This document shows positions 8,797 through 62,060 of a DNA stretch of 64,000 nt, one piece after another. The stretch is from Protula sp. h YS-2021 (taxonomy: Eukaryota > Annelida > Polychaeta > Sabellida > Serpulidae): the NCBI GenBank assembly GCA_949752745.1, contig OX457034.1, forward strand, positions 4,353,646-4,417,645, in the 5' to 3' direction. Within the stretch, counting starts at the first letter, position 1. Each line of letters starts with the position of its first letter. Below the pieces are notes generated by a model, which saw only the letters and a program-made list of their open reading frames with translations, searched no databases and was not told the origin of the DNA. Both the position numbers and the translations under genes were made by a program.

Positions 8797-11700
8797 TTAA
8801 AACTTGCTGTACAGGTGTATTTCTTTCAGTAAAGAGATAATTTTGCTTGGTGTTACCTTTGTAAAAAGGTCTTCCATGGAGTTCACACTGTAGTAGCGTG
8901 AACGAATGTTCTGAAAATCTACGCAATTGAGTAGAATATGTTTTACAGTCAAACGTTCTTGACAACCAATACATTCTGGCGGGGTATGGCCTCTCATCAG
9001 ATATCTGTGGGTGATGTATGTATGCCCGATTCGAGCTCTATGCATTACCGTTGTGTCGCGAATATTGCCAAAAGCTAGCTGCTTTTGTCCAACTGTTGGT
9101 TGGATTTGAAACAGTTTGTTATTTCTTTGTTCGTTCCACTTTTGTTGCCAAAGTTTTTTTACATAGCTTGAGATATGGGGCTTAAAGTCGGAGTATGGTA
9201 TGAGAAGGTCGGATATGTTGTAGTTTAGCGCCTCTTTTGCTGCCTGGTCCGCAGCTTCATTACCCGATATGCCGACGTGGCTTGGCACCCAGCAAAACAC
9301 TACGGATTTACCTTGTTTGATTGCCCTTTCAAAACGTTCTATTAGGTCTAAAATCATCGTGTTCGACACTTGTAGATTTTCTAGTGATTGTAACACCGAT
9401 AGCGAATCGACACAGATAAGGAACTTTTAATACCTACTAATCTTGACGATTTCCATGGCTAGTTGGAGTGTCCGAACCTCCGCGGAAAAGATGGAGGAGC
9501 GGTTTGGTAATCTTGTTTTCAGGGTATTTGATTTTGTAACTATCGAGGCAGCAATTTTGTTATCGAGTTTAGATCCGTCCGTGTATATGAGTATGGGGGG
9601 GGTAGGTTTCTTTTATATCAGCAAACCTAACTTTGAACTCTTCAGCATTTGTTGTGTCTTTGGGAAAGTTTGTCATAGTTTTGTTTATGGTTGGCCTTTG
9701 TATTTTCCATGTTGGGTATTTTTGAAACTTTTAAGTTTGCAATTTGCTCGACTTTGATTCCAGCATTATTAAGGTGGTTACGGATTCTAGCGCCAAAGGG
9801 TACGATAACCCTGGATCGTGCGTTTAAGATTTCTGAATGGTCTTTTTCAAACACTGCCTTATGGGTGGGGTTTTCTTTATTTGCGTATGGCTTAATTGCA
9901 TATTGCATTGAAAGTTTGATTCGTTGGATATCTAATGGTTGTTCATTTGATTCAACCTGAAGGCTTTCCGCAGGTGACGTTCTGAAAGCGTTTAGGCAGA
10001 GGAGAAGGCTTTGGTTTTGTATTGGGTTCAACATCTTTAAGTACGAAGGCCTTGCTGATCCGTAGACAATGCTACCATAATCTATTCTAGATCTTATTAA
10101 TGATCTATACAGTTTTAATTTGGTACTTGTATCTGCTCCCCAGTCCTGGGCGGAGACGACTCGTAGCAGGTTGAGTGCCTTTTGACATTTCCTCTTCACT
10201 TCTTTTATGTGGGGAATAAAATTTAGCTTCGAGTCCAGAGTGAGACCAAGGAATTTGTTTTCCTTTACTACAGGTATTTGAGTGTTTGATAAGTATAAAA
10301 CAGGGTCGTCGTGTGGCTTTCGCTTGTTGCAAAAGTGCATGCAGACTGTTTTGGTTTGCGAGAACTTGAAACCATTTTGGTCAGCCCATTTTTGAAGAGA
10401 GTTTATATTTTGTGGGAGGCGACGCTCGATCAGATTCATATTCTTACCCCTGGCAGACATAGCAAAGTCGTCTACAAAGAGTGAGCTCTCTATTCCCTGT
10501 TTAGTTGCGCCTTTGATACTATTGATTTTGATTAGAAACAATAGAATTGATAGAATACAGCCTTTAGGATAGCCCTCTTCTTGCCCAAAATAATCCGAGA
10601 AAATGGAACCGAGACGGACTTTAAACCGCCTGTCATTTAAAAACGCTTGAATGAATTCAGGAAGGCGACCTCGTACACCAAGGTCGTAGAGATCTTGCAT
10701 GACCCCGTGTTTCCAAGCCGTGTCGTAGGCTTTTTCTAAATCGAAGAAAACAGTGACGACATGTTCGTTATTGATAAAACCTTCTCTTATAAATGATTCG
10801 AGTCTAACCAGGTGATCTATGGTACTTCTTTCTTTTCTAAATCCGCTTTGGATGCCAGTAAGCAGATGGTTTTTCTCTAAATACCAAATTAGTCTTGCGG
10901 CTATCATTCGCTCTAATGTTTTGCACAATGAACTTGTCAGGGATATTGGGCGGTAATTTTGGGGATTAGTAGAATCCTTATTGGGTTTTGGGATTGGTAT
11001 GATAGTGGCTTCTTTCCATATTTCAGGAAAGTGTCCTGTGGTCCAGACTTGGTTGAGTAGTTCTAAGAGGACTTCAAGAGTTTCCTCAGGTAGGTGTTTT
11101 AGAACCTGGTAGTGCAGGTCGTCAGGTCCGGCAGCTGTGTCATGTGAGTTATGTATAGCGTCTTTTAAATCCGCTGGGGTAAAGGTGCTATTATACTGTT
11201 CCAAATTATTTGAGGTGAAGTCTATTGGTGTTTGTTCTTTAATTTCTTTTATTTGAAGGAACGCAAGAGAGTACTTTTCAGATGAGGAATTGAACTGAAA
11301 GGTTCTACCAAAGGTATTTGCCATTTCATCGGGTTTTGTGATAGTTTGGTTGTTTGTAATGAGGTTGTTTATGGGTTTTGAGATGTTTTTACCAGATATT
11401 TTTCGAAACATCTCTCATACTTTTTTGGTTGAATTGTTTTTGTTCAATTTGGAGATATATTCCGCCCAGGTTTGCTTTTTGCTTGCTTTGATGGTTCTGC
11501 GTGCTTCGGCACGTAGCCTTTTGTATTCAAGTTTGGTACTATTGTCCGGGCTGATGTAGAAATGGCGCAGAGCTGTTTTCCGCATGGCTATTGCTTTTTT
11601 GCAATCGTCGTTAAACCAAGGTTTTGGTTGTTTTTTAGGATTTCTGGAAGTTTTAGGTATGGTTTTTTCCATGACTGCCTGGATTAGAGCCGTAAAAATA

Positions 11701-12466
11701 AAATCGGGTCGTCGTCGTGTGTAAACTGGTTGATTTTAATGGCCTTTTTGCAGAGTTCCTCGAACAGTGAATAGTCTGCTTTGTGGAATTTCCACTTTGG
11801 TATTGCTTTTTGTTGCTGTGGATCTAGTGGTTTTAATAAAATGGGGATGTGGTCGCTGCCATAAGTGTCCCCCAAGACTTCCCATTCAAAATCTAAAAAC
11901 AAATTACTAGATGCCATTGCAAGGTCGAGAGAGGTTTTTGAACCAGTGCCAGGATGTAGGTATGTAGGAGATTTATCATTGTAAAGTGAGAGATTGTGGA
12001 AGTTTAGTAGGTTTTCAATTAGTTTACCTTTGTGGTCGGTGCTTGCATTACCCCATAGGTCGCTATGTGCATTGAAGTCGCCTAAAAACAGAATAGGTTT
12101 TGGTATTTGGCAAATCAAGCCGTTGAGTTCTTCTGGTTGAGGTTTGGAAGGTGGTGGTAGGTATATGTTACAAATGGAAAAAGTTTTCTTCATTGTAACA
12201 CGAACTGCTGTTGCTTGCAGGTTTGTGTTTAATTTGAGTTCACTTTGAATAACGTTGTTTCGGATTAAGGTAGTGATTCCGCCCGAGGCGCGGTTGTTAT
12301 TGGCGTTTTTGTTATAGGAAGTGTAGCCGATTAAATTTGGTGGGTAGATATCAGTACCGCATGTTTCTTGGAGGCAAAAGACAGACGGGTTATATTGTTG
12401 GCTCAGAGTTAAAAGATCTATCTGGTTGGTCCAAAAACCTCTTATGTTCCAGTGGACTATTGCCAT
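8797..12466 (-). pseudogene. LINE A2 ORF2, nearly complete but with stops
   Basis: Best-preserved family A ORF2. It starts with ATG at 12464-12466 (MAIVHWNIRGFW) directly after the ORF1 stop. Endonuclease motifs: FCLQET, CNIYLPPPSKPQ, GDFNAHSDLWG, GSDHIPI (11684-12466). The RT block is a 589-residue open stretch (9642-11411) with [31 protein letters not shown], a changed motif B (YPKGCILS for PQG) and FVDDF. RNase H and the Cys/His motif (CIGCQERLTVKHILLNC) end at 8797. Breaks: TGG to TGA stop near 11414, frameshifts near 11690 and 9600, and an AAA to TAA stop near 9427. Few lesions, so the copy is relatively young. Confidence 0.9.
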
Positions 12467-23100: not shown

Positions 23101-26100
23101 TTAGTTAGTTAGTTAAATGGTTTGTTTAACGACACGATCGACCCTTAGCGGGTTACATTGTGTCAGAACATGTCAGTATTCAGTGACTAGAAGACAATGC
23201 TACAAGTTAAAATCAAGATAAACTAAAACCATGTATATTCTAAAATCATAAGGTAAAAAAAAGGCTAGAAATACTGGCACAGGTTGATTTCTTTTAAAAA
23301 TTGTATAAGTTTGCTAGGTTCTACTTCATCAAACAGCTGCTTCAAGGAGTCAGCTCTGAAATGACGTGAGCGGGCGTCTTGGAAATCGGTACAGTCTATT
23401 AGGATATGTTTAACGGTGTAAGGTTCCTGACACCCGACACAGTCGGGTGCCGGCTCGCCTCTTAAAAGATGTTTGTGGGTGACATATGTATGTCCTATTC
23501 TGGCTCTATGGTGAACCATTTCATCTTGCACACTGTTAAGTGGCGGGGGCTTTTGTCCGACTACCGGCTTTGTTTGATACAGCTTGTTGTTTCTTTGTTT
23601 GTTCCATCTTTCTTGCCACAATCTTTTTGTGTATCTTGTGATTTGATATTTAAAATCGGAGGCTGGTATGAGCATATCGATACAATTATCACTTAGAGCC
23701 TCTTTTGCAGATGTCTTTGCCAGCTTTGGTGGCCTCGTCATACCTTTCCAGAAGGTCAAGGATAAGTGGGTTTGATATTTGTAGGTTTTCAATTGATTGC
23801 AGTACGGACATAGAGTCCACGCATAACATAAACTTTTTGTATCGGCTAATTTTCACTATCTGGATAGCGAGATGTAGAGCTTTAATTTCGGCCGAGAAAA
23901 ATAGAGGAACCATTTGGAAGTCTTGTTTTCAAGGTGTTATTTTCAGTTACAACGGAAGCAGCCGATTTGTTGTCGAGGTTTGAGCCGTCCGTGTAGACGA
24001 AATGGTAGTCGTTAAATTCTTCCTTGAGCTCTGCAAAGTTTGATCGAAATAGAAAGGGGCTAGTTGTTTCCTTTGCATAGACCGAAAGGTTCTTTAGTAC
24101 CACAGGTTTGGTGAGTTTCCATTGTGGTAGTTTTGGTACTCTGTATTTTGCGATTGACTCTATGGTGATGTCAGCGTTATCAAGGTGAGGCTGAACCCTG
24201 GTTCCAAATGGAGGCATTACGGTAGGACCTCTTTCATGGAAGCGAGAAAAATCTGATCCAAAGACTGAGTTGTAGGTGGGATTCTTCTTGTTTGCATAAA
24301 GCTTTGTTGAGTACTGCACAGCGAGTTTATCTCGACGAATGTTAAGAGGCTGCTCATTTGCCTCCACATGGAGGCTTTCTGCTGGTGATGTTCTAAAAGC
24401 GTTTAGACACAGTCGTAAACCTTGATTTTGTATCGGGTCTAGGATTTATAGGTATGAAGGTCTTGCTGATCCATAGACAATGCTGCCATAGTCTAATCTA
24501 GACCGTATCAAGGCTCGGTAAAGCAACGGTTTTGTATCCCGATCAGCGCCCCAGTCATGGGCCGATATTACTCTTAGGAGATTGAGTGCTTTTTGACATT
24601 TTCGTTTCAGTTCTTTGATGTGTGGGATAAAGCTTAGCTTGGAGTCGAAAAGTAAACCCAGAAATTTGTTTTCTTTAACAACAGGTATTTGAATGCCAGA
24701 AATGTATAGAACGGGGTCGTCGTGTTGTTTGCGTTTATTGCAGAAATGCATGCAGACTGTTTTAGTTTGAGAAAATTTAAAACCGTTTTGGTTAGCCCAT
24801 GTTTGCAGTGAGTGTATGTTCTGCTGTAAGCGTCGCTGTATTAGATTCATATTCTTGCCTCTGCAAGATATTGCGAAGTCGTCTACAAAGAGTGAGCTGT
24901 CTATCCCCTGTTTTATGTTATGTCGGATGCTATTTATTTTTATCAGGAACAGAAGAACGGAAAGGATGGATCCCTGAGGAAAACCTTCCTCTTGTTCGAA
25001 GTAGTCTGAGAACACGGCCCCAAGGCGGACCCGAAAACGTCGGTCTTCTAGAAAGGCTTTAATAAATTCAGGTAGGCGGCCTCGCAGCCCCAAGTCAAAG
25101 AGGTCTTGTGGTACTCCATGTTTCCATGCTGTGTCATAGGCCTTTTCCAAGTCAAAGAAAACCGAAACGACATGTTCGTTATTGATAAAGGCTTCTCTTA
25201 TAAACGTTTCTAGTCTTACAAGGTGATCCAGGGTATTTCTTTGTTTTCTAAAACCGCTCTGTATATCGGCAAACAAATTATTGCTTTCTAGATACCAGGT
25301 GAGTCTGTCAGCTATCATGCGTTCAAATGTTTTACACAGTGAACTTGTTAAGGAGATTGGTCTGTAATTTTGTGGGCTTGTGGGGTCTTTGTTTGGTTTT
25401 GGTACTGGTATGATAGTAGCTTCTCTCCATATTTCTGGGAAGTTGCCAGACTTCCAGGCTTTGTTAAATAGGCCCAACAGTATTTCCAAATTTTCATTTG
25501 GCAAGTGTTTAAGGGTTTGGTAGTGTATGTCATCTGAGCCAGCAGCGGAATTGTGAGATTTGTTTAAAGCCTGTCGGAGTTCACTCAGTGAGAAATCGCA
25601 GTTGTAGGATTCAATATTGTCCGAGTAAAAGTTTATGTTGTTTCGTTCTTTAAGTGCCTTATACCGTCTAAAGTCTTCGTTATAGTGATTAGAGGATGAG
25701 TTATGTTCAAATGTTTCTCCCAGGGCGTCAGATATTTTCCTTCTTCCCGTTACGGTGGCATTGTTAGTTTGTAAATGGCTCACAGGGCCTAGAGAGCCTT
25801 TGTCGGATATCTTTCTTACCATATCCCACGTTTTCTTTAGTGAAGTTTTCCCGTTTAGCTTGGAAACAAACTCCTCCCATGAGCGTTTCTTACTTTGTTT
25901 TACAGTCTTGCGGGCGATTGCATTGAGTCTTTTATATTCCATTCTTCTAGTGGTGTCCGGATGGTTGATGAACTGTTTTAACGCTTGTTTTCGAGCAGCT
26001 ACTGATCGTTTGCATTCATCGTTGAACCAGATTTTGTGTAGTCTTTTGCGAGATCCGGATATTTTCGGAATAGTCTTTTCCACTATTGATTGTATCAAAG

Positions 26101-26814
26101 CGGTGAATAAAAGAATAGGGTCATTATCACTTTCAAGGTGTTCTCGTGTAATTGACTGATGGCATAATTCTTGGAATTGTAGCCAATCTGCTTTGTTAAA
26201 ATTACACTTGTTTACTCTTTCTTGTGGTTGTGGAATGGTTTGTTTGATAAAATTGGAAAATGATCGCTTCCATGCAGATCGTCTATAACTTTCCAGCTAA
26301 AATCCAGGTACAAGTTAGCAGAGGCTATGCAGAGGTTGATAGAGGTTTTTGAACCAGTGCCCATATGAAAATATGTAGGTGTTTTGTCATTGAGTAGAGA
26401 CAGGCTGTGATGGTGTAGTAGGTTTTCTATGATCTTTCCTTTTTGGTCTGTTGTGTGGTTGCCCCACATTGTACTATGAGCGTTGAAATCACCGACCAAT
26501 AGTATGGGTTTTGGCAGTTGGTTTATGAGATCTGAAAATTCGTGTGGTTGTGGTTTTGAAGGTGGTGGCAGGCAGATGTTGCACACAGTGATTGTTTTGT
26601 TCAAGGTAGCCCTGACGGCATGGGCCGACAAGTGTAACCGATTAAATTTGGTGGGTAGATATCAGTACCGTATGTTTCTTGGAGGCAAAAGACAGACGGT
26701 TTATATTGTTGGCTCAGAGTTAAAAGCTGTATCTGGTTGGTCCAAAAACCTCTTATGTTCCAGGGAACTATTGCCATTTTACTTACTATAGGTCCGGGGC
26801 CTTTGTATTGTTAC
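23101..26814 (-). mobile_element. Chimeric LINE B/A, second copy, 5'-truncated
   Basis: TTAG tail from 23101, hairpin 23131-23164, B-type ORF2, then at about 26633 the same switch to A-type endonuclease sequence seen at 6265, with the same internal deletion. About a dozen differences by eye over 1.7 kb separate it from 4717-6440. It ends just after the A-type ORF1/ORF2 junction (26814), consistent with 5' truncation. No target duplication was recognised. Confidence 0.88.
23265..26770 (-). pseudogene. LINE B/A ORF2, second copy
   Basis: C-terminal Cys/His motif (23265-23792, [17 protein letters not shown]), RNase H (23689-24367, CVDSMSVL), RT (a 550-residue open stretch 24446-26098 with [43 protein letters not shown]) and endonuclease (26212-26631, [18 protein letters not shown]). 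The RT block is intact including both catalytic aspartates, unlike the first chimera copy. RNase H is cut by a deletion near 23708 and a frameshift near 23900. The endonuclease lacks about 120 bases at the chimeric junction. Confidence 0.88.
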
Positions 26815-26947: not shown

Positions 26948-29043
26948 TTGATTGATTGATTGATTGGTTTAACGACACTAGCAACCCGTTAGGGTCATAT
27001 TGTGTCAGTTCTGTTGCTATAGGAAGACTCGGTTGAAATTAAAATCAATTGAAATAGACAAAACAAGTAATGTATACATCTAAAATCAACTAAATTTAAT
27101 TTAAATCTTGCTGTACAAGTGTATTTCTTTCAGAAAAGAAATAATTTTGCTTGGTGCTACCTTTGTAAAAAGGTCTTTCATGGAATTCACACTGTAGTAG
27201 CGTGAACGAATGTTCTGAAAATCTACGCAGTTGAGTAGAATATGTTTTGCAGTCAAACGTTCTTGACAACCAATACATTGTGGAGGAGCATCGCCTCTCA
27301 AAAGATATCCGTGGGTGATGTATGTGTGCCCGATTCGAACTCTATGCATAACCGTTGTGTCGCGAATACTGCCAAGAGCTAGGTGTTTTTGTCCAACTGT
27401 TGGTTGGATTTGAAAGAGTTTGTTATTTCTTTGTTCGTTCCATTTTTGTTGCCAAAGGTTTTTTACATAACTTGTAACATGGGGTTTAAAATCGGAGTAT
27501 GGTATGAGAGGGTCGGATATGTTGTAGTTCAGCGCCTCTTTTGCTGCCTGGTCCGCAGCTTCATTACCCGGTATGCCCACGTGGCTTGGCACCCAGCAAA
27601 ATACTAGGGATTTGTCTTGTTTGACTGCCCTTTCGTAACGTTCTATTAGGTCTAGAATCATTGTGTTCGACACTTGCAGATTTTCTAGTGACTGTAAGAC
27701 CGATAAGGAATCGACACAGATAACGAATTTTTTGTACCTACTAATCTTGATAATTTCCATGGCTAGTTGGAGTGCCCGAACCTCCGCGGAAAAGATGGAG
27801 GAGCCGTTTGGTAATCTTGTTTTAAGGGTATTTGATTTTGTAACTATTGAGGCAGCAACTTGGTTATCGAGCTTAGATCCGTCTGTGTATATGAAATAAT
27901 GGTGAGGGTAGGTTTCTTTTATCTCAGCAAACCTAACTTTGAATTCTTCAGCATTTGTTGTGTCTTTGGAAAAGTTTGTCAGAGTTTTGTTTATGGTTGG
28001 CCTTTGTATTTTCCATGTTGGGTATTTTGAAACTTTCAAGTTTGCAATTTGCTCAACTTTGATTCCAGCATTATTAAGGTGGTTCCGGATTCTAGTGCCA
28101 AAGGGTACGATAACCCTAGGGCGTGTGCTTAAGATTTCTGAATGGTCTTTTTCGAACACTGCCTTATGGGTCGGGTTTTCTTTGTTTGCGTATAGTTTAA
28201 CTGCGTATTGCACTGACAGTTTGATTCGCTGGATATCAAGTGGTTGTTCATTTGATTCCACCTGAAGGCTTTCCGCAGGTGACGTTCTGAAGGCGTTAAG
28301 GCAGAGGCGAAGGCCTTGATTTTGTATTGGGTTCAACATCTTCAAGTACGAAGGCCTGGCTGATCCGTAGACGATGCTACCATAATCTATTCTAGATCTT
28401 ATTAATGATATATATATAGTTTTAATTTAGTACTGGTATCTGCTCCCCAGTCTTGAGCGGAGACGACTCGCAGCAGATTGAGTGCCTTTGGACATTTCCT
28501 CTTCACGTCTTTTATGTGGGGAATAAAATTTAGCTTCGAGTCCAGAATTATACCAAGGAATTTGTTTTACTTTACTACAGGTATCTGAGTCTTTGATTAG
28601 TATAAAATGGGATCGTCGTGTGGCTTTCGCTTGTTGCAAAAGTGCATACAAACTGTTTTGGTTTGCGAAAACTTGAAACCATTTTGGTCAGCCCATTTTT
28701 GAAGCGAGTTTATATTTTGCTGGAGGCGACGCTCGATAAGATTCATATTCTTGCCTCTGGCAGACATTGCAAAGTCGTCTACAAAGAGTGAGCTGTCTAT
28801 TCCCTGTTTAGTTGCGCCTTTGATACTATTGATTTTGATTAGAAATAACAGAATTGATAGAATACAGCCTTGAGGATAGCCCTCTTCTTGCTCAAAATAG
28901 TCTGAGAAAATGGAACCGAGACGGACTTTAAACCGCCTATCATTTAAAAACGCTTCAATGAACACAGGAAGGCGACCTCGTACACCAAGATCGTAGAGGT
29001 CTTGCATGACCCCGTGTTTCCAAGCCGTGTCGTAGGCTTTTTG
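26948..29043 (-). mobile_element. LINE family A, copy 5, 5'-truncated
   Basis: TGAT tail from 26948, hairpin 26974-27006, ORF2 from the C-terminus to RT motif A. It joins family E sequence at 29043-29045 inside matching T runs. No target duplication was found at either side, so the A/E joint may come from template switching rather than insertion. Confidence 0.85.
27101..28345 (-). pseudogene. LINE A5 ORF2 C-terminal 414 residues
   Basis: Long open stretch with RT thumb end, complete RNase H ([47 protein letters not shown]) and the Cys/His motif CIGCQERLTAKHILLNC, ending at KEIHLYSK. All RNase H catalytic residues are present. It is separated from the RT by a TA-repeat expansion at about 28408-28418 and a frameshift at about 28490-28600. 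Confidence 0.88.
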
Positions 29044-36188: not shown

Positions 36189-39100
36189 CTACCAACAAAA
36201 CAAAGTCGATTTTATTCATTATGGTACTGCTTTGTAGCTTCTATTTCCCGCGAATTTTTTTTTATTGGTCTAAGAAGCAACTGTAATTGTTGCATTGCAG
36301 CAGCCGTGAAGAGAAACGAAAGCGAAACTAACCCTGGGCTTTTCTTCGACGCTCCACTTGGGCCGCACCACGTAGTCTTTATTCGACGGCCTGGGCACAC
36401 GCGCCCGCGCCACCCAGCCCTTCTCACCCGGCCTCAACGCCCTGCAACAGTCACACACACACACTCATCATTTGTGTTCGCAAAGCTGTAACAGTTCTAC
36501 ATCAATTATCTAAATGATCATTTACTTCGAAATTCGTTCCAGGTGTATCATAACTTCGGGTGTACAAGTTTGTTTATTTGGTGTTTAAGGTCCCGTTCAC
36601 CAACTATGATGAGTGTACTGAGACGCACTTGCTAAAGGAACAAGTGGGAGAAAAAGAAGGAACAATGAAGAAATAGTAAACGAGGAGTCGGAAAAAAGAA
36701 GACAATTCCGATAAGTCGCCTCTTACGCCATGCACGGAACAGAACGCAGTGGTCGTACTCTCAAGATTACTCCAACCCACAGGAGGATGGGTGTACAAGT
36801 CGATCCCTGTATAAGTCGCGGTTGCTTTAAAATGACCAAAACTAGAAATAAAATAACTTCGTCGTGTTTTTCTATCAAGTCCAAAATTATTGGGTTGGAT
36901 ACCTGTAAGTTTTCTAGTGACTCAAGCACTGACATGGAGTCCACGCACAATATGAATTTTTTGTAACGGCTAATCTTGACAATTTGCATAGCTAGCTGCA
37001 GGGCTCTAATTTCTGCAGAGAAAATAGAAGACCCATCAGGGAGCCTGGTTCTGAATGTATTATTTTCTGTGACAATAGCTGCTGCAGCCTTGTCCTCAAG
37101 TTTGGAACCATCGGTATATATGAAATGGTAGTCATTATAATTATCCTTTAATTCTGCAAATTTTGACTGAAATAAACACGGGTTAGTTCGTTCTTTTGTG
37201 GACTCAGAAAGAGTCTTCAAGACCACAGGTTTCGTTAACTTCCAAGGGGGTTGGTTAGGTATTTTGTAATTTGCAACAGATTCAACGATTATACCTGCTT
37301 CTTGCAGGTGTGGTATAATCCTAGTTCCAAAGGGGGGATAGCATTGGTACCTCTATCCGCATAATGTGATCCGAAAACAATCTGATGAGTAGGGTTATTT
37401 CTATTGGCGTAAAGTTTTATACAATACTGCATGGCAAGTTTTAACCGCCGTATATTGAGAGGTTGTTCATTTGCCTCAACGTGTAAAATGTCGGCTGGGG
37501 ATGTTCTAAAGGCATTTAAACATATTCTTAAGCCTTGATTCTGTATCGGTTCTAGCATCTTGAGATATGATGGTCTAGTTGAGCCATAAACTATACTGCC
37601 ATAGTCCAGTCGCGATCTAATTAGAGCTCTATACAACATGAGTTTAGTATCACGATCTGCTCCCCAATCGTGGGAGGAGATGACTCTCAGTAAATTTAAG
37701 GCCTTCTGACACTTTCTTCGGAGGTGTTTGATATGTGGGATAAAACTAAGTTGGCTATCAAAAATTAAACCTAAAAATTTGTTTTCCTTGACAACAGGGA
37801 TTTGCACGTTAGAGATGTGTAAAACTGGATCGTCGTGCTGTTTTCGTTTTTTACAAAAGTGTATACAAACCGTTTTGGTTTGTGAGAATTTAAAACCATT
37901 CTTATTCGCCCAAACTTGGAGAGAATAAATACTCTGCTGAAGACGACGCTGTATTAAATTCATACTTTTGCCTCTACACGACATGGCAAAATCATCCACG
38001 AAGAGTGAGCTATCTATCCCCTGTCTCAGTGTATCTTTTATATTGTTGATTTTTATCAGGAAAAGTAGAATTGAAAGGATGCATCCTTGGGGGAAGCCTT
38101 CCTCTTGTTCAAAGTATTCTGAGAATATTGTACCAAGGCGAACCCTGAATCGACGGTCGTCCAGGAATCCTTTTATGAACTGGGGCAGACGGCCTCGGAG
38201 GCCGAAATCAAAAAGATCCTTTAGTACTCCGTGTTTCCATGCTGTGTCATAAGCTTTTTCCAAGTCGAAGAAAACGGTAACAACATGTTCCTTGTTATTG
38301 AAAGCTTCTTTCACAAAAGATTCTAGTCTTACAAGATGGTCCAGAGTGCTCCTTTGTTTCCCAAAGCCACTCTGTATGTCGGCAAGCAAGTTGTTTCTTT
38401 CCAGGTACCATTTTAATCTTTCAGCTACCATACGATCAAATGTTTTGCACAGGGCACTTGTCAAGGAAATTGGTCGTAATTCTGAGCATTTCGTGGATCT
38501 TTGTTTGGCTTTGGTATTGGTATTATTGTGGCTTCCTTCCATATTTCTGGAAAAGTGTTGGAATTCCAGGTATGATTTAACAATTCTAAAAGGATCTTTA
38601 GGGTATGGTCTGGCAAATGTCTAAGCATCTGATAATGTATGTCATCTGGTCCTGCTGCTGAATCATGGGAACTATCTATGGCCTTTCTCAATTCATTAAG
38701 AGAAAAGTGCTCATTATACGCTTCGCTGTTGTCAGAATAGAAGTTAAGAGGATTAGTTTCTTCTGTTTCTTTATAGCGTCTAAACTCGTGGCTATAATTT
38801 TCGGAAGATGAGTTATGTTCAAATGTTTCGCCTAGGGTATCTAAAATGTCCTTTGGGTCGGTGATCATATTATTGTTAGCTTCTAGATGGCTTACTGTGC
38901 TAAAAGTGTTCTTGCCAGATATTTTTCTAACCATGTCCCAGGTCTTTTTTAGGGAATTATTTGTGTTGAGTTGAGAAACATATTCATGCCAGGACTCTTG
39001 TTTGCTTTTTTTGACTGTTTTACGCGCAACTGCCTTGGCCCTTTGATATTCTATTTTTCTTGTAATGTCTGGGTAGTCTGAAAAGTTTTTGAGAGCTTGT

Positions 39101-44327: not shown

Positions 44328-44556
44328 TTGTGTGTTTGTTTGGTGTTTAACGTCCAGTTCACCAACTATGATGAGTATATTCGGGTGCATTTGCTAAAGG
44401 AACAAGTGGAAAAAAGAAGGAAGACTGAAGAAATAGTAGAAATAATGTTAGAGTTAGAGTTAGAAATAAAGAAATTCCGATAAGTCGCCTCTTACGCCAT
44501 GCGCGGAACAGAAAGCAGTGGCGTATTCTCAAAATTTCCCAAAACCCACACGGGGA
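44328..44556 (-). mobile_element. SINE-like family S1 copy
   Basis: Matches the two full S1 copies (GTGTTTAACGTCCAG, CAAGTGG, CGCCTCTTACGCCATGC, then CACACGGGGA at the far end). It lies just upstream of the IWS1 exon at 44014-44182. Target duplication not clear. A nearby 25-bp direct repeat (CACATGTT..GACATCATGCA at about 44212 and 44286) is separate. Confidence 0.8.
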
Positions 44557-49194: not shown

Positions 49195-50212
49195 TAGTTA
49201 TTTGATTGGTTTAACGACACCGCCAACCTGTTGCAGGTCATATTGTGTCATTCCTGGTAACTTTGTCGAATTTATACTTTATTGATTAAAAATGATTATA
49301 AAATAAAGTCTCAAATATACTAAAAAATATACTAAAAATAGACTTAATGGTGGTCTACACATAGGAATACATATTAATCTCTTTTAAAAATTCTAGGACC
49401 TTGTTGGAATTTACCTTCTCAAAGAGCTCTCTCATGGAATCAACTCTATAATAACGGGGACGAATGTGATTGAAGTCTATACAATCTATCAAGATGTGTT
49501 TTACTGTATACCGTTCCTGACAACTTACACATTCGGGTTGTGGTTCACCTCTTAAGAGGTGTTTGTGAGTAGTGTAAGAATGTCCTATATTAATCTGTGA
49601 ATTACCATATCGTCGCAAAGACCATTTAGGGAGGGCAATTTGCGCCCTACCACAGGGTTAATTTGGTATAGCTTATTGTTGGTTTGTTCATCCCAATGTT
49701 GCTGCCATAGATTTTTGACATATCTAGAAATATGGCACTTAAAATCTGATGACGGTATAAGGAAATCTGAGCAGTCTTGGTTTAACGCTTCTTTGGCGCC
49801 TTTGTCGGCTGCCTCGTTGCCCGGGATTCCAACGTGGCTCGGTACCCAACAAAATATTATCTCTTTGCCAGCTTTTACCACTTCGTCATATTTTTCTATC
49901 AAGTCCAAAATTATTGGGTTGGATACCTGTAAGTTTTCTAGTGACTCAAGCACTGACATGGAGTCCACGCACAATATGAATTTTTTGTAACGACTAATCT
50001 TGACAATTTGCATAGCTAGCTGCAGGGCTCTAACTTCTGCAGAGAAAATAGAAGACCCATCAGGGAGCCTGGTTCTAAATGTATTATTTTCTGTGACAAT
50101 AGCTGCTGCAGCCTTGTCCTCAAGTTTGGAGCCATCGGTATATATGAAATGGTAGTCATTATAATTATCCTTTAATTCTGCAAATTTTGACTGAAATACA
50201 CACGGGTTAGTG
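49195..50212 (-). mobile_element. LINE family C, copy Y, nested in copy X
   Basis: A 5'-truncated copy with tail, hairpin, Cys/His motif (49355-49618, [17 protein letters not shown]) and RNase H (49585-50210: [30 protein letters not shown]). Host sequence GATATGTGGG at 49185-49194 resumes as GGGATAAAACTAAG at 50214, with only GTGGG duplicated. Its RNase H is close to the copy at 36856. Confidence 0.87.
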
Positions 50213-50822: not shown

Positions 50823-51208
50823 CCTTTGTTTCCCAAAGCCACTCTGTATGTCGGCCAGCAAGTTGTTTCTTCCCAGGTACCAGTTTAACCTTTCAGCTAC
50901 CATTCGCTCAAATGTTTTGCACAGGGCACTTGTCAAGGAAATTGGTCTGTAATTTTGAGGATTTCGTGGATCTTTGTTTGGCTTTGGTATTGGTATTATT
51001 GTGGCTTCCTTCCATATCTTTGTTTCCTAAAACCACTCTGTATGTCGGCAAGCAAGTTGTTTCTTTCCAGGTACCATTTTAACCTTTCAGCTACCATTCG
51101 CTCAAATTTTTTGCACAGGGCACTTGTCAAGGAAATTGGTCTGTAATTTTGAGGATTTCGTGGATCTTTGTTTGGCTTTGGTATTGGTATTATTGTGGCT
51201 TCCTTCCA
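50823..51208 (-). repeat. Tandem duplication of an RT fingers segment
   Basis: The segment from CTTTGTTTCC to TTCCTTCCATAT, about 195 bp, occurs at 50823-51018 and again at 51019-51212. The two copies differ at roughly eight positions. It encodes the region around RPISLTS and QSGF. The divergence suggests either age or joining of two different templates. Confidence 0.85.
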
Positions 51209-51274
51209 TATTTCTGGAAAAGTGTCGGAATTCCAGGTATGGTTTAACAATTCAAAAAGGATCTTTAGGGTATG

Positions 51275-51493
51275 TTGGTTTGTTGATTTGGTGTTTAACG
51301 TCCCGTTAAGCGACTATGATGGGTATATTGGGACGCACTTGCTAAAGGAACAAGTGGGGAAAAAAAGAGGGAAGAATGAAAAAATATTTAAAGAGTTAGA
51401 AAGAAAGAAATTCCGATTAACCGCCTCTTACGCCATGCATGGAACAGAACGCAGTGGGTGTATTCTTAAGATTCCCCCCACCCCACAGGGGGA
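51275..51493 (-). mobile_element. SINE-like family S1, full copy with TSD
   Basis: 219 bp between perfect 12-bp target duplications CTTTAGGGTATG (51263-51274 and 51494-51505), inserted in LINE C copy X. It defines the S1 ends: minus-strand 5' GTCCCCCTGTGGGG and 3' GGGACGTTAAACACCAAATC. The 3' hairpin is at 51300-51334. Possible weak pol III A box TGGCGTAAGAGG, no B box seen in the right place. Confidence 0.93.
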
Positions 51494-51872
51494 CTTTAGG
51501 GTATGGTCTGGCAAGTGTCTAAGCATCTGATAATGTATGTCATCTGGCCCTGCTGCTAAATCATGGGAACTATCTATGGCCTTTCTTAATTCATTAAGAG
51601 AAAAGTGCCCATTATATCCTTCGCTGTTGTCAGAATAGAAGAGAATTAGTTTCTTGTGTTTCGTTATAGCGTCTGAACTCATGGCTATAATTTTCGGAAG
51701 ATGAATTATGTTAAAATGTTTCGCCTAGGGTATCTAAAATGCCCTTGGGGTCGGTGATCATATTATTGTTAACTTCTAGATGGCTTACTGTGTTAAAAGT
51801 GTTCTTTCCGGATATTTTTCTAATCATGTCCCAGGTCTTTTTTTTAGAGAATTATTTGTGTTGAGTTGAGAA

Positions 51873-52436: not shown

Positions 52437-53182
52437 TTGTTTGTTTGTTTGATGTTTAACGTTTGTTTAGTGTTTGATGTTCATCAACTAAGATGGATAA
52501 TTAGGACGCACTTGCCAAAGAAACAAGTGGAAAAAAAGGAAAGAAGAATAAAAAAAAGTTTGTTTGATGTTTAACGTCCCGTTCACCAACTAGGATGGGT
52601 GAAGAAATAGTAAAACAAGAGTTAGAATTGATTGATTGGTTGGTATAACGACACCAGCAACCCATTAGGGTCATTGTGTCGGTTCTGTACTAGTGAGACT
52701 CAGTTGGAATTAAAATCAATTGAAATAGACAAAACAGTGATGCATAAAGCTAAAATTCAACTGAATTCAATTAAAACTTACTGTACAGCTGTATTTCTTT
52801 AAGGAAAGAAATAATTTTGCTTCGTGTTACCCTCCCAAAAAGGTCTTTCAAAGAATTCACACTGTAGTAACGTAATCGGATGTTTAGGAAATCTACACAA
52901 TTGAGTAGAATATGTTTCAGTCAAACGTTCTTGACAACCGATACAGTCTGGAGGGGGTCGCCTCTCAAAAGATAACTATGGGTGATGTATACGTGTCAAA
53001 GTCGGGCTCTGTGCATAACTTTTGTATTGTTGAGAGCTAGAGGCTTTTGTCCAACTATTGGCTGGATTTGTTTATTTCTTTGTTCGTTCCACTTTGGTTG
53101 CCAAAGATTTTAAGAGTTAGAATGAAAGAAATTCCGATCAGTCGCCACGCACGGAACAGAACGCAGCTGGTGTATTCTTAAT
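52437..53182 (-). mobile_element. SINE-like family S1, split by a LINE A
   Basis: Target duplication ATCACGTCAGGT (12 bp) at 52425-52436 and 53183-53194. The S1 sequence is interrupted by a LINE A at 52629-53111. A second, 45-bp S1 3' end (GATGTTTAACGTCCCGTTC..) sits inside at about 52558-52603, itself a very short insertion. Three insertion events are therefore readable within 750 bases. Confidence 0.88.
52629..53111 (-). mobile_element. LINE family A, 5'-truncated, inside S1
   Basis: Target duplication AAGAGTTAGAAT (12 bp) at 52617-52628 and 53112-53123. TGAT/TTGG-like tail, hairpin with some decay, 3'UTR and Cys/His coding region. More diverged from the other A copies, so older or from a side branch. 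Confidence 0.9.
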
Positions 53183-53194
53183 ATCACGTCAGGT

Positions 53195-54183
53195 GATCTC
53201 TGGCGCGTTAAATTGGTGTAAAATACTCACTAAAACTTGAGTAGTAGCACACATCTCATCAAAGCCTTGAAGGGTCAGAAAACTAGTACGACAGCGTTTA
53301 AGCAGATTACTGAAGAGAAAAAAGCAGTGCGAGCATAGTTTTGGTGTGTTTAGAAGATTACCAGAAGACCAGAATTTGTGGACTTTCATGTATGTATAAA
53401 CTTTAATACATATCTTCAATGTATAAATAGTGGATACACACAATTTCATTGCTGTCAGATTTTACTGCTTTATGCAATATGTGTCAGAAGTAAAACCCAC
53501 ACCATGTGAGTTAGTTGTGACGATTGTCCCAGCTCCACGTGGAACTCCACTTTGAATTTTCAATATAATCCTTAATGCAAACATCATTTTTGAATGTCAT
53601 CGTATTTATCTCTATTGAACCTTTGCATATTTGAAAGTTTCAAGAAGTTTCACTGGAATTTAGCGATCTTTGTCCTTTGTTTAAATGAACGATAAGAAAT
53701 CGCATTATTTATCAAAATAGGAAAATAAAAATCGATAACAATGACAAGACCTAACCCTAAGATTGACGTAGGCGTATACATTAAATCGAATAACCTTAAA
53801 TAATTACAATAATCAATAAATATAAATTTTAAAATTAACAGTTATTTAAATACCCAGTAGCAACGTGCCAAGTCGTCTCGGAGGCTTATCCCAAATTACT
53901 TTGGTTTACTTTTAGTGTTTCTAACTCATTGTAAATCTTACTTTCAAATTATTTTAGCTTACTTTTAACACTTTCTACTTTATGTTGTAGATACTGAACG
54001 TGAAGCTCTGATGCACAGTGACTTTTTCTGCACCTACCCAGCTAGTGGACAAAGCTTCATGGTGGTCAGGGGACATTAAACTCAGTTGATCCTGAGATTA
54101 ATGTTGTTCGAACTAAAACACCTTAACTTTAAGGTGGTCAGAGGACATTATGCTCAGCTGATTCTGAGATAATACTAGAATAG
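53195..54183. other. Spacer with 72-bp direct duplication
   Basis: AT-rich, no gene supported. GGTGGTCAG..GGACATTA..CTCAG..GAT..CTGAGAT occurs at 54061 and again at 54133. A minus-strand frame at 53189-53449 has no recognisable features. Confidence 0.5.
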
Positions 54184-54334
54184 TTTGGTTTGGTTTATTG
54201 GTGTTTTAAGTCCCTTTCAGCGATCTCAGCGCTATATCAGGACTACCCTGCCACATTATACTGAAATGGGCCATTCCAGTTTGAATCCCTAGGGGGATCA
54301 TAATTGAGTGCACAGCTAATAGGCACGAGCAGGA
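54184..54334 (-). mobile_element. SINE-like family S2, full copy with TSD
   Basis: 151 bp between TAGAATAG (54176-54183 and 54335-54342). Minus-strand 5' TCCTGCTCGTGCC, a weak B box GGATTCAAACTGG and possible A box TAGCTGTGC upstream, 3' end GGGACTTAAAACACCAATAA. The 3' hairpin is 54209-54244. A second, shorter copy is at 57755-57868. Confidence 0.82.
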
Positions 54335-57446: not shown

Positions 57447-57754
57447 TAGAGTAAATCGGGTCAAAACGGCCATGGGGCGTACTCTTATAATGTTTTGTTT
57501 CGGAAGAGTGCATTGATCGGGTACTCCAACTATACTATCCTAGGAGGCAAAGTTGCCGCTTTTCGTGTGAGTAGAGCATTTTATTCCTTTTTTGGTATGA
57601 AAATTATAAGAAACCTCTTTTTTTAATGGCCATGACTTTCTTGACAGTAACTGGCAACCTATAAATGTTTCTCTGCTTATTCTTTGCTTGATAATATACA
57701 TCATCTTTGGTGAGCGATAATAGATTCTTTTCTAGCAACGGGTTTGTCTGCTCG

Positions 57755-57868
57755 TTTATTGGTGTTTTAAGTCCCTTTCAGCGATCAAAGCGCTATATCA
57801 GACTGCCCTGCCACATTGTACTGAAATGGGCCATTCCAGTTTGAATCCATCGGGGGATCATGATGATT
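57755..57868 (-). mobile_element. SINE-like family S2, partial copy
   Basis: Matches the S2 copy at 54184-54334 (GTTTTAAGTCCCTTTCAGCG, CCACATT, TGGGCCATTCCAGTTTGAAT). The inner stem AGCG/CGCT is kept and one outer-stem base pair is lost. It sits inside the left part of the pogo-like element. Confidence 0.8.
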
Positions 57869-61977: not shown

Positions 61978-62060
61978 TGTTTGTTTGTTTCGTGTTTAAC
62001 GTCCCGTTCACCAACTAGGATGGGTATATTACGACGCACTTGCAAAAGAAAGGGGGGGGG
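61978..62060 (-). mobile_element. SINE-like family S1, 5'-truncated
   Basis: GTTTGTTTCGTGTTTAACGTCCCG..CACTTGCAAAAGAAAG followed by a run of G. It covers only the 3' third of S1. Confidence 0.75.

Follow-up and report, generated by a model that had tools for sequence, protein, structure and literature searches.

A SINE copy with a LINE-like 3′ hairpin

Which LINE mobilizes a SINE whose 3′ hairpin resembles the tails of neighboring LINEs in its architecture but not in its base pairs? This question is raised by one copy of the SINE family S1 in the 64,000-nucleotide stretch of Protula DNA analyzed here (hereafter the window; positions 4353646 to 4417645 of sequence C11). The copy occupies positions 51278 to 51492 on the minus strand, with its 3′ end at the low coordinate, and is a full-length member of subfamily S1a that matches the S1 consensus over query positions 1 to 216 at 90% by blastn and departs from the S1a consensus by 2.8%. 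It lies between the two copies of a 12-bp target duplication, CTTTAGGGTATG, at 51263 to 51274 and 51494 to 51505. A LINE reverse transcriptase stretch is present twice, close together, at 50838 to 51217, just before the insertion.

On the forward strand, the 3′ end of the copy reads GTTTAAC (51293 to 51299), GTCCC (51300 to 51304) and GGGAC (51330 to 51334), which delimits a hairpin of 35 nt at 51300 to 51334. The original prediction had contrasted these arms with the GACAC/GTGTC arms of the resident LINEs, and both its letters and its coordinates proved correct, although it quoted the elements as their reverse complement. They are in fact encoded on the minus strand, where the hairpin forms the 3′ end; there, GTCCC AATATACCCATCATAGTCGCTTAAC GGGAC GTTAAAC precedes a short AAC-rich repeat. 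As originally stated, two of the five outer-stem pairs differ between S1 and the resident LINEs and are changed on both sides, whereas the AATAT linker, the GTTAAAC flank directly 3′ of the hairpin (51293 to 51299) and approximate length (35 nt against 33 to 34 nt) are held in common. Sequence and predicted fold agree that this copy keeps the outer stem of the LINE hairpin but not its inner helix.

A search pattern representing this tail, GTTTAACGTCCC, occurs in the window three times exactly and six times with at most one mismatch, compared to an expectation of 0.23. The genome (863 Mb) contains 942 occurrences, and the reversed pattern gives 425.

S1 is a retroposed family with two main subfamilies

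S1 has the short length and high copy number characteristic of SINEs, with a consensus of 216 nt and 3495 candidate places in the genome, of which 40 were scored and 30 were fetched. Target duplications of at least 10 bp flank 21 of the 39 near-complete copies examined, one tandem array accounting for six, compared to 9 of 1418 mismatched flank pairs used as a control. These numbers bear out the earlier proposal that S1 copies are retroposons. The window carries further examples, all on the minus strand: a full-length copy with a mutated tail and a 12-bp duplication, ACTTGTACACCC (36568 to 36786); a diverged full-length copy, also with a mutated tail, for which we looked for a target duplication and found none (44330 to 44555); a 3′ fragment with a mutated hairpin (61979 to 62051); and rearranged fragments adjoining a GACAC LINE tail (52461 to 52600). 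The 3′ repeat of S1 is AAAC-like. V, MESC and Snail are SINE superfamilies for which a shared central domain serves as the criterion. With regard to a tRNA-like head with pol III boxes, ARAGORN was run on the window and on seven loci and reported no tRNA.

Two main subfamilies can be distinguished. S1a, to which the flagged copy belongs, has GTCCC and the loop CATCATAGTCGCTTAAC, while S1b has GTCCT and the loop CATCCTAGTTGGTGAAC, such that the fifth outer pair (GTCCT/GGGAC) becomes U·G. The GTCCC arm noted originally is therefore present in S1a but is not universal within S1. S1a is the least diverged subfamily and has lost the inner helix; its median divergence is 1.9% among 13 copies, at least five of them from one array, and that of S1b is 5.6% among 37 copies, in a sample that leans to consensus-like copies. 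Differences between the two subfamilies fall at 5 of 35 hairpin positions versus 4 of 181 positions elsewhere (Fisher p = 0.0066), but we do not use this excess as evidence, since hairpin letters served to separate the groups in the first place. We also observed S1a copies in tandem arrays on sequences C5 (26.312 to 26.350 Mb) and C2 (57.196 to 57.260 Mb) of the assembly (G000), recurring every ~1.7 kb and ~2 kb. Another candidate locus, L042, was set aside as an S1-related SINE with a broken stem.

A second SINE-like family, S3, shares this type of tail. Its minus-strand copy at 54183 to 54299 carries the outer stem GTCCT/GGGAC and the inner stem TAGC/GCTG, and a second copy, whose tail has a deletion, is located at 57754 to 57859 on the same strand. 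Exact S3 tails number 149 genome-wide, with none for the control pattern. The body of S3 differs from that of S1, yet its stems are nearly the same as those of a variant S1 type represented by locus L115, apart from one U·G pair. One S3 copy (L060) has stretches that resemble tRNA promoter boxes by eye only, and ARAGORN found no tRNA in it.

Resident LINEs carry GACAC/GTGTC tails

The window is rich in LINE copies, and the best protein relatives include a Lucinoma symbiont record and another named from a spider. Separate minus-strand reading frames from several copies encode an endonuclease (11684 to 12466; Pfam Exo_endo_phos_2, 8e-22), a reverse transcriptase of 616 amino acids (24446 to 26296; RVT_1, 1.2e-33) and an RNase H (27101 to 28426; RNase_H, 3.2e-12), which is the combination of domains expected for the I superfamily. 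Vingi elements belong with the I group. Among molluscs, the reported I clades are Ingi and Nimb, apart from one unknown (PMC10294476).

The window repeatedly shows tails of 33 to 34 nt that combine GACAC/GTGTC, AATAT and GTTAAAC; they fall into three types, exemplified on the minus strand by T1 (26974 to 27006; 33 nt), T2 (49216 to 49249; 34 nt) and T3 (23131 to 23164). These assignments rest on sequence together with predicted folds, computed for T2, T3 and a T1 tail. The 3′ repeat of these LINEs is CAATC or AACT. Across the genome, the exact pattern AATAT..GTGTC followed by the CCAAT start of the repeat occurs 1275 times, whereas the corresponding pattern with the S1 arm, AATAT..GGGAC(A/G)TTAAACCAAT, occurs 0 times, and the controls for both give 0. 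Stem and repeat therefore travel together by family.

Two further features of the LINE tails deserve mention. On C1 of the assembly between 24.17 and 24.26 Mb, GTGTC tails lie on one strand at near-regular spacings of ~1.4 or 2.8 kb in parts. A decayed LINE tail is repeated within a duplicated stretch at L043, L044 and C1:9207778; in L043 and L044 it reads GACAC...GAGAC, and we rejected these degenerate tails as a new stem type for this reason.

Folding and covariation of the hairpin

The predicted folds of the T1 and T2 tails consist of an outer stem of 5 bp, an AAUA bulge, an inner helix closed by a U·G pair, a spacer of 3 nt, the opposite arm of the outer stem and GUUAAAC; that of T3 is slightly different. 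The same plan is found in L115-type S1 copies, S1b and S3, whereas S1a forms the outer stem only. Relative to shuffled sequences, the LINE tails are unusually stable (z = −3.78 for T2, −3.07 for T1 and −2.47 for T3). The S1 tails are no more stable than their shuffles, with S1a at −6.9 kcal/mol (z = −1.38) and S1b at −8.9 kcal/mol (z = −0.82). No match was obtained from Rfam at gathering scores. Repeats in abalone may resemble the S1 and LINE tails.

The outer stem is well preserved among S1 copies, as the original prediction required: each of its pairs forms in 25 to 27 of 29 distinct tails. These tails were selected for similarity to an S1 consensus with the arms in it, which makes the count less than a clean test. 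Departures in the 29 tails, drawn from loci L009 to L038 and the window, are mostly single changes. Exact GTCCC/AATAT/GGGAC tails number 195 in the genome and 0 for the reversed control, a comparison in which the pattern itself selects for the arms.

A covariation signal was evident at one position of the inner helix. Among 76 distinct S1 tails (from 92 found), inner pair 3 is C-G in 38, G-C in 7, C-C in 13 and G-G in 1, and it is formed in 47 of the 76, compared to a mean of 38.5 in shuffles that carry no correction for relatedness; only 72 of 20,000 shuffles reached this number. The pair is formed in none of 17 S1a-like tails. When these are removed, it is formed in 47 of 59 tails (mean 37.0; 1 of 20,000), although this value is flattered, as S1a is partly defined by the letters under test. 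At the remaining three inner pairs, the counts in the same 76 tails do not rise above those in shuffles (61 versus 61.3, 73 versus 73.0 and 70 versus 70.4). S1 shows a G-C/C-G double change at one inner pair and no such signal at these three. Keeping the S1a-like tails in the test weakens the case for covariation but does not affect the comparison with the LINE L039 described below. This double change suggests that the fold matters, and it is only suggestive because relatedness is uncorrected. We consider constraint on the pairing to be partly demonstrated.

A LINE with the GTCCC/GGGAC stem

A LINE whose 3′ end has exactly the S1 outer stem would offer a simpler origin for the S1 tail than imitation of the resident LINEs by shape. 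A LINE-alignment scan of public bacterial assemblies returned 79 stretches and three animal-type LINE loci, two of which come from Solemya symbionts. One of these loci, L039 (NZ_JRAA01000003.1, 516604 to 528364), lies in a scaffold from a gill symbiont of Solemya velum and includes an open stretch of 1238 residues. By the scan and then by direct reading, its 3′ end is GTCCC AATATAGCCTTTCTGTGCTGAC GGGAC ATTAAAC, followed by CATTC repeats, and this tail folds with z = −3.05. The other two loci were uninformative as sources of a 3′ end: L040 ends at its ORF, and the match to L041 reaches the contig end inside the reverse transcriptase.

An animal-type LINE in a bacterial symbiont scaffold could reflect host contamination, a chimeric assembly or a true insertion. 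We infer that L039, a single LINE from a bacterial scaffold, is host DNA. Two S1 tail patterns gave 0 and 0 matches in viral contigs, where the LINE alignment returned nine stretches, none a relative; an S1 tail pattern gave 0 matches in bacterial genome contigs, and plasmids and phages yielded no match to the RNase H part of L039.

At the nine paired positions compared (stem letters entered by hand), L039 is identical to the variant S1 copy L115, and it equals S3 apart from one U·G. Over the entire hairpin, S1 matches L039 at 23 of 33 positions, versus 17 to 20 of 34 to 35 for four resident LINE tails, whose stems differ from that of S1. The loop and the CATTC repeat of L039 differ from those of S1. 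The original prediction had named as its undoing a different LINE of identical 3′ sequence, and L039 comes near to this, since its stem is exact but its loop and repeat are not.

All stretches of the window that match the L039 protein lie on the minus strand. In the genome, its RNase H part retrieved 4784 candidates, of which 120 were scored, at 42 to 45% identity. Among the 30 LINE loci nearest to L039, 29 end in GACAC/GTGTC, one ends in CACAC/GTGTC and none is of the GTCCC type. Approaching from the tails, we listed 100 of the 195 exact GTCCC...GGGAC tails. Twelve were retrieved for their odd loops or flanks; blastn matches all of them to S1, and tblastn matches none to six LINE proteins. 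Another 10 S1a-like tails were inspected by eye, and all 10 are preceded by S1 sequence, in one case only beside the hairpin. A LINE with exactly the arms that were to be sought is present in a symbiont scaffold, but limited searches of this genome, by one I-type protein query and by these tails, turned up no LINE of the GTCCC type.

Origin of the S1 tail

We propose that the hairpin is the tail by which a SINE is recognized at its 3′ end. At the end of the S1 RNA, an outer stem of 5 bp is combined with a 4-nt bulge (AAUA), a U·G-closed inner helix, a spacer of 3 nt, the other outer arm, and UUAAAC with short repeats, an architecture that also characterizes the 3′ ends of I-superfamily-like LINEs with endonuclease, reverse transcriptase and RNase H. 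A LINE protein would grip the tail and start target-primed reverse transcription. The stem letters would be those of a LINE lineage with GTCCC/GGGAC and UAGC/GCUG, acquired together with the tail. The inner helix of S1 would then have changed from G-C to C-G at one pair and have been lost in S1a, presumably in that order. With moderate confidence, we favor the view that the S1 tail was taken from a GTCCC-type lineage like that of L039 and was not re-evolved from a resident GACAC tail.

The original prediction held instead that S1 copies the LINE by shape. The preserved outer stem and the inner-pair double change accord with this idea, but the existence of L039, to which S1 is nearer, does not. 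In its present form, the idea is that resident GACAC/GTGTC LINEs move S1 now and that their protein recognizes the shape of the stem but the sequence of the AAUAU linker and of the GUUAAAC flank. Such use of the resident LINEs is possible given that our limited searches of this genome uncovered no GTCCC-type LINE, and these LINEs are abundant, have long open frames, and share the linker, the U·G closing pair and the flank with S1. Moreover, S1a is so little diverged that something must have mobilized it fairly recently. However, the inner helix and loop of S1 differ from those of the resident LINEs, and the loop is decisive in L2-clade LINEs (PMC4176376). Furthermore, the 3′ repeats differ, and S1a lacks the inner helix altogether. 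We therefore regard current mobilization by resident LINEs as unlikely, if still a serious contender. It is rather unlikely that a resident GACAC LINE needs nothing more than shape, linker and flank, and can thus be used in trans by SINEs with differing stems, even by S1a with its outer helix only. If this were true, recognition would depend little on the sequence of stem and loop, and S1a would represent a minimal tail.

A different partner might be a LINE of this genome that belongs to another clade and has an S1-like tail, in which case the I-type likeness would reflect old shared ancestry or convergence. Our search in this genome covered I-type LINEs with one protein query, and so leaves room for such an element. 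Yet among 48 sampled GTTTAACGTCCC places, 39 loosely match the context of S1, one other has an S1 body and eight are unclassified, and we consider this explanation improbable. Finally, that two short complementary arms lie near a common flank by functionless coincidence would fit the unremarkable stability of the S1 folds and the three inner pairs without covariation, but this is very improbable in view of the 195 exact tails against none for the reversed control, even with a pattern that selects for arms, and of the architecture that two SINE families have in common with L039 and with three types of resident LINE tail.

Comparison with known SINE/LINE pairs

The preferred reading, in which the S1 tail derives from a lineage of the GTCCC type, can be compared to SINE/LINE pairs described previously. 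Stringent pairs, namely eel UnaSINE/UnaL2 and the 58 SINEs listed by Ohshima (PMC3747384), are like S1 in having a LINE-like 3′ hairpin, a flank, tail repeats and target duplications. These known pairs share 3′ sequence and in some cases also the repeat (PMC3747384), whereas S1 and the resident LINEs have only architecture, linker and flank in common. Neither the 3′ end sequence nor the 3′ repeat (AAAC-like versus CAATC or AACT) is the same, and the hairpin architecture is shared in full by L115-type S1, S1b and S3 and in the outer stem only by S1a.

Direct precedent for a re-paired stem is provided by monocot L1-clade LINEs and SINE2 elements, in which stem letters vary in compensation between LINE and SINE while the CGAG flank and the UCU loop are conserved (PMC3747384). 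That system differs from ours in involving a plant L1 clade, whereas here the LINE is I-superfamily-like, the hairpin has two helices and the loops differ too. For the L2-clade LINEs ZfL2-1 and ZfL2-2, the stem can be swapped but not broken and is recognized generally, while the loop must match and is recognized specifically (PMC4176376). Given the swappable L2 stem and the compensatory changes in monocots, a re-paired SINE stem is unsurprising. What is unusual in S1 is that the loop differs as well and that the inner helix is lost in S1a. Partners from the I group have counterparts in the Gecko SINE with Aedes I-clade LINEs and in SINE2-1_Acar with Vingi, which occur in other animals (PMC3747384).

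We place S1 in this known class of SINE/LINE pairs with shared tails, most likely with a partner lineage of the GTCCC type. The shared 3′ tail rule would then extend to a set of SINEs and an I-superfamily-like LINE. Its natural stem swaps, inner-pair switch and little-diverged subfamily with half a hairpin would provide variants for asking what part of a tail the LINE protein reads.
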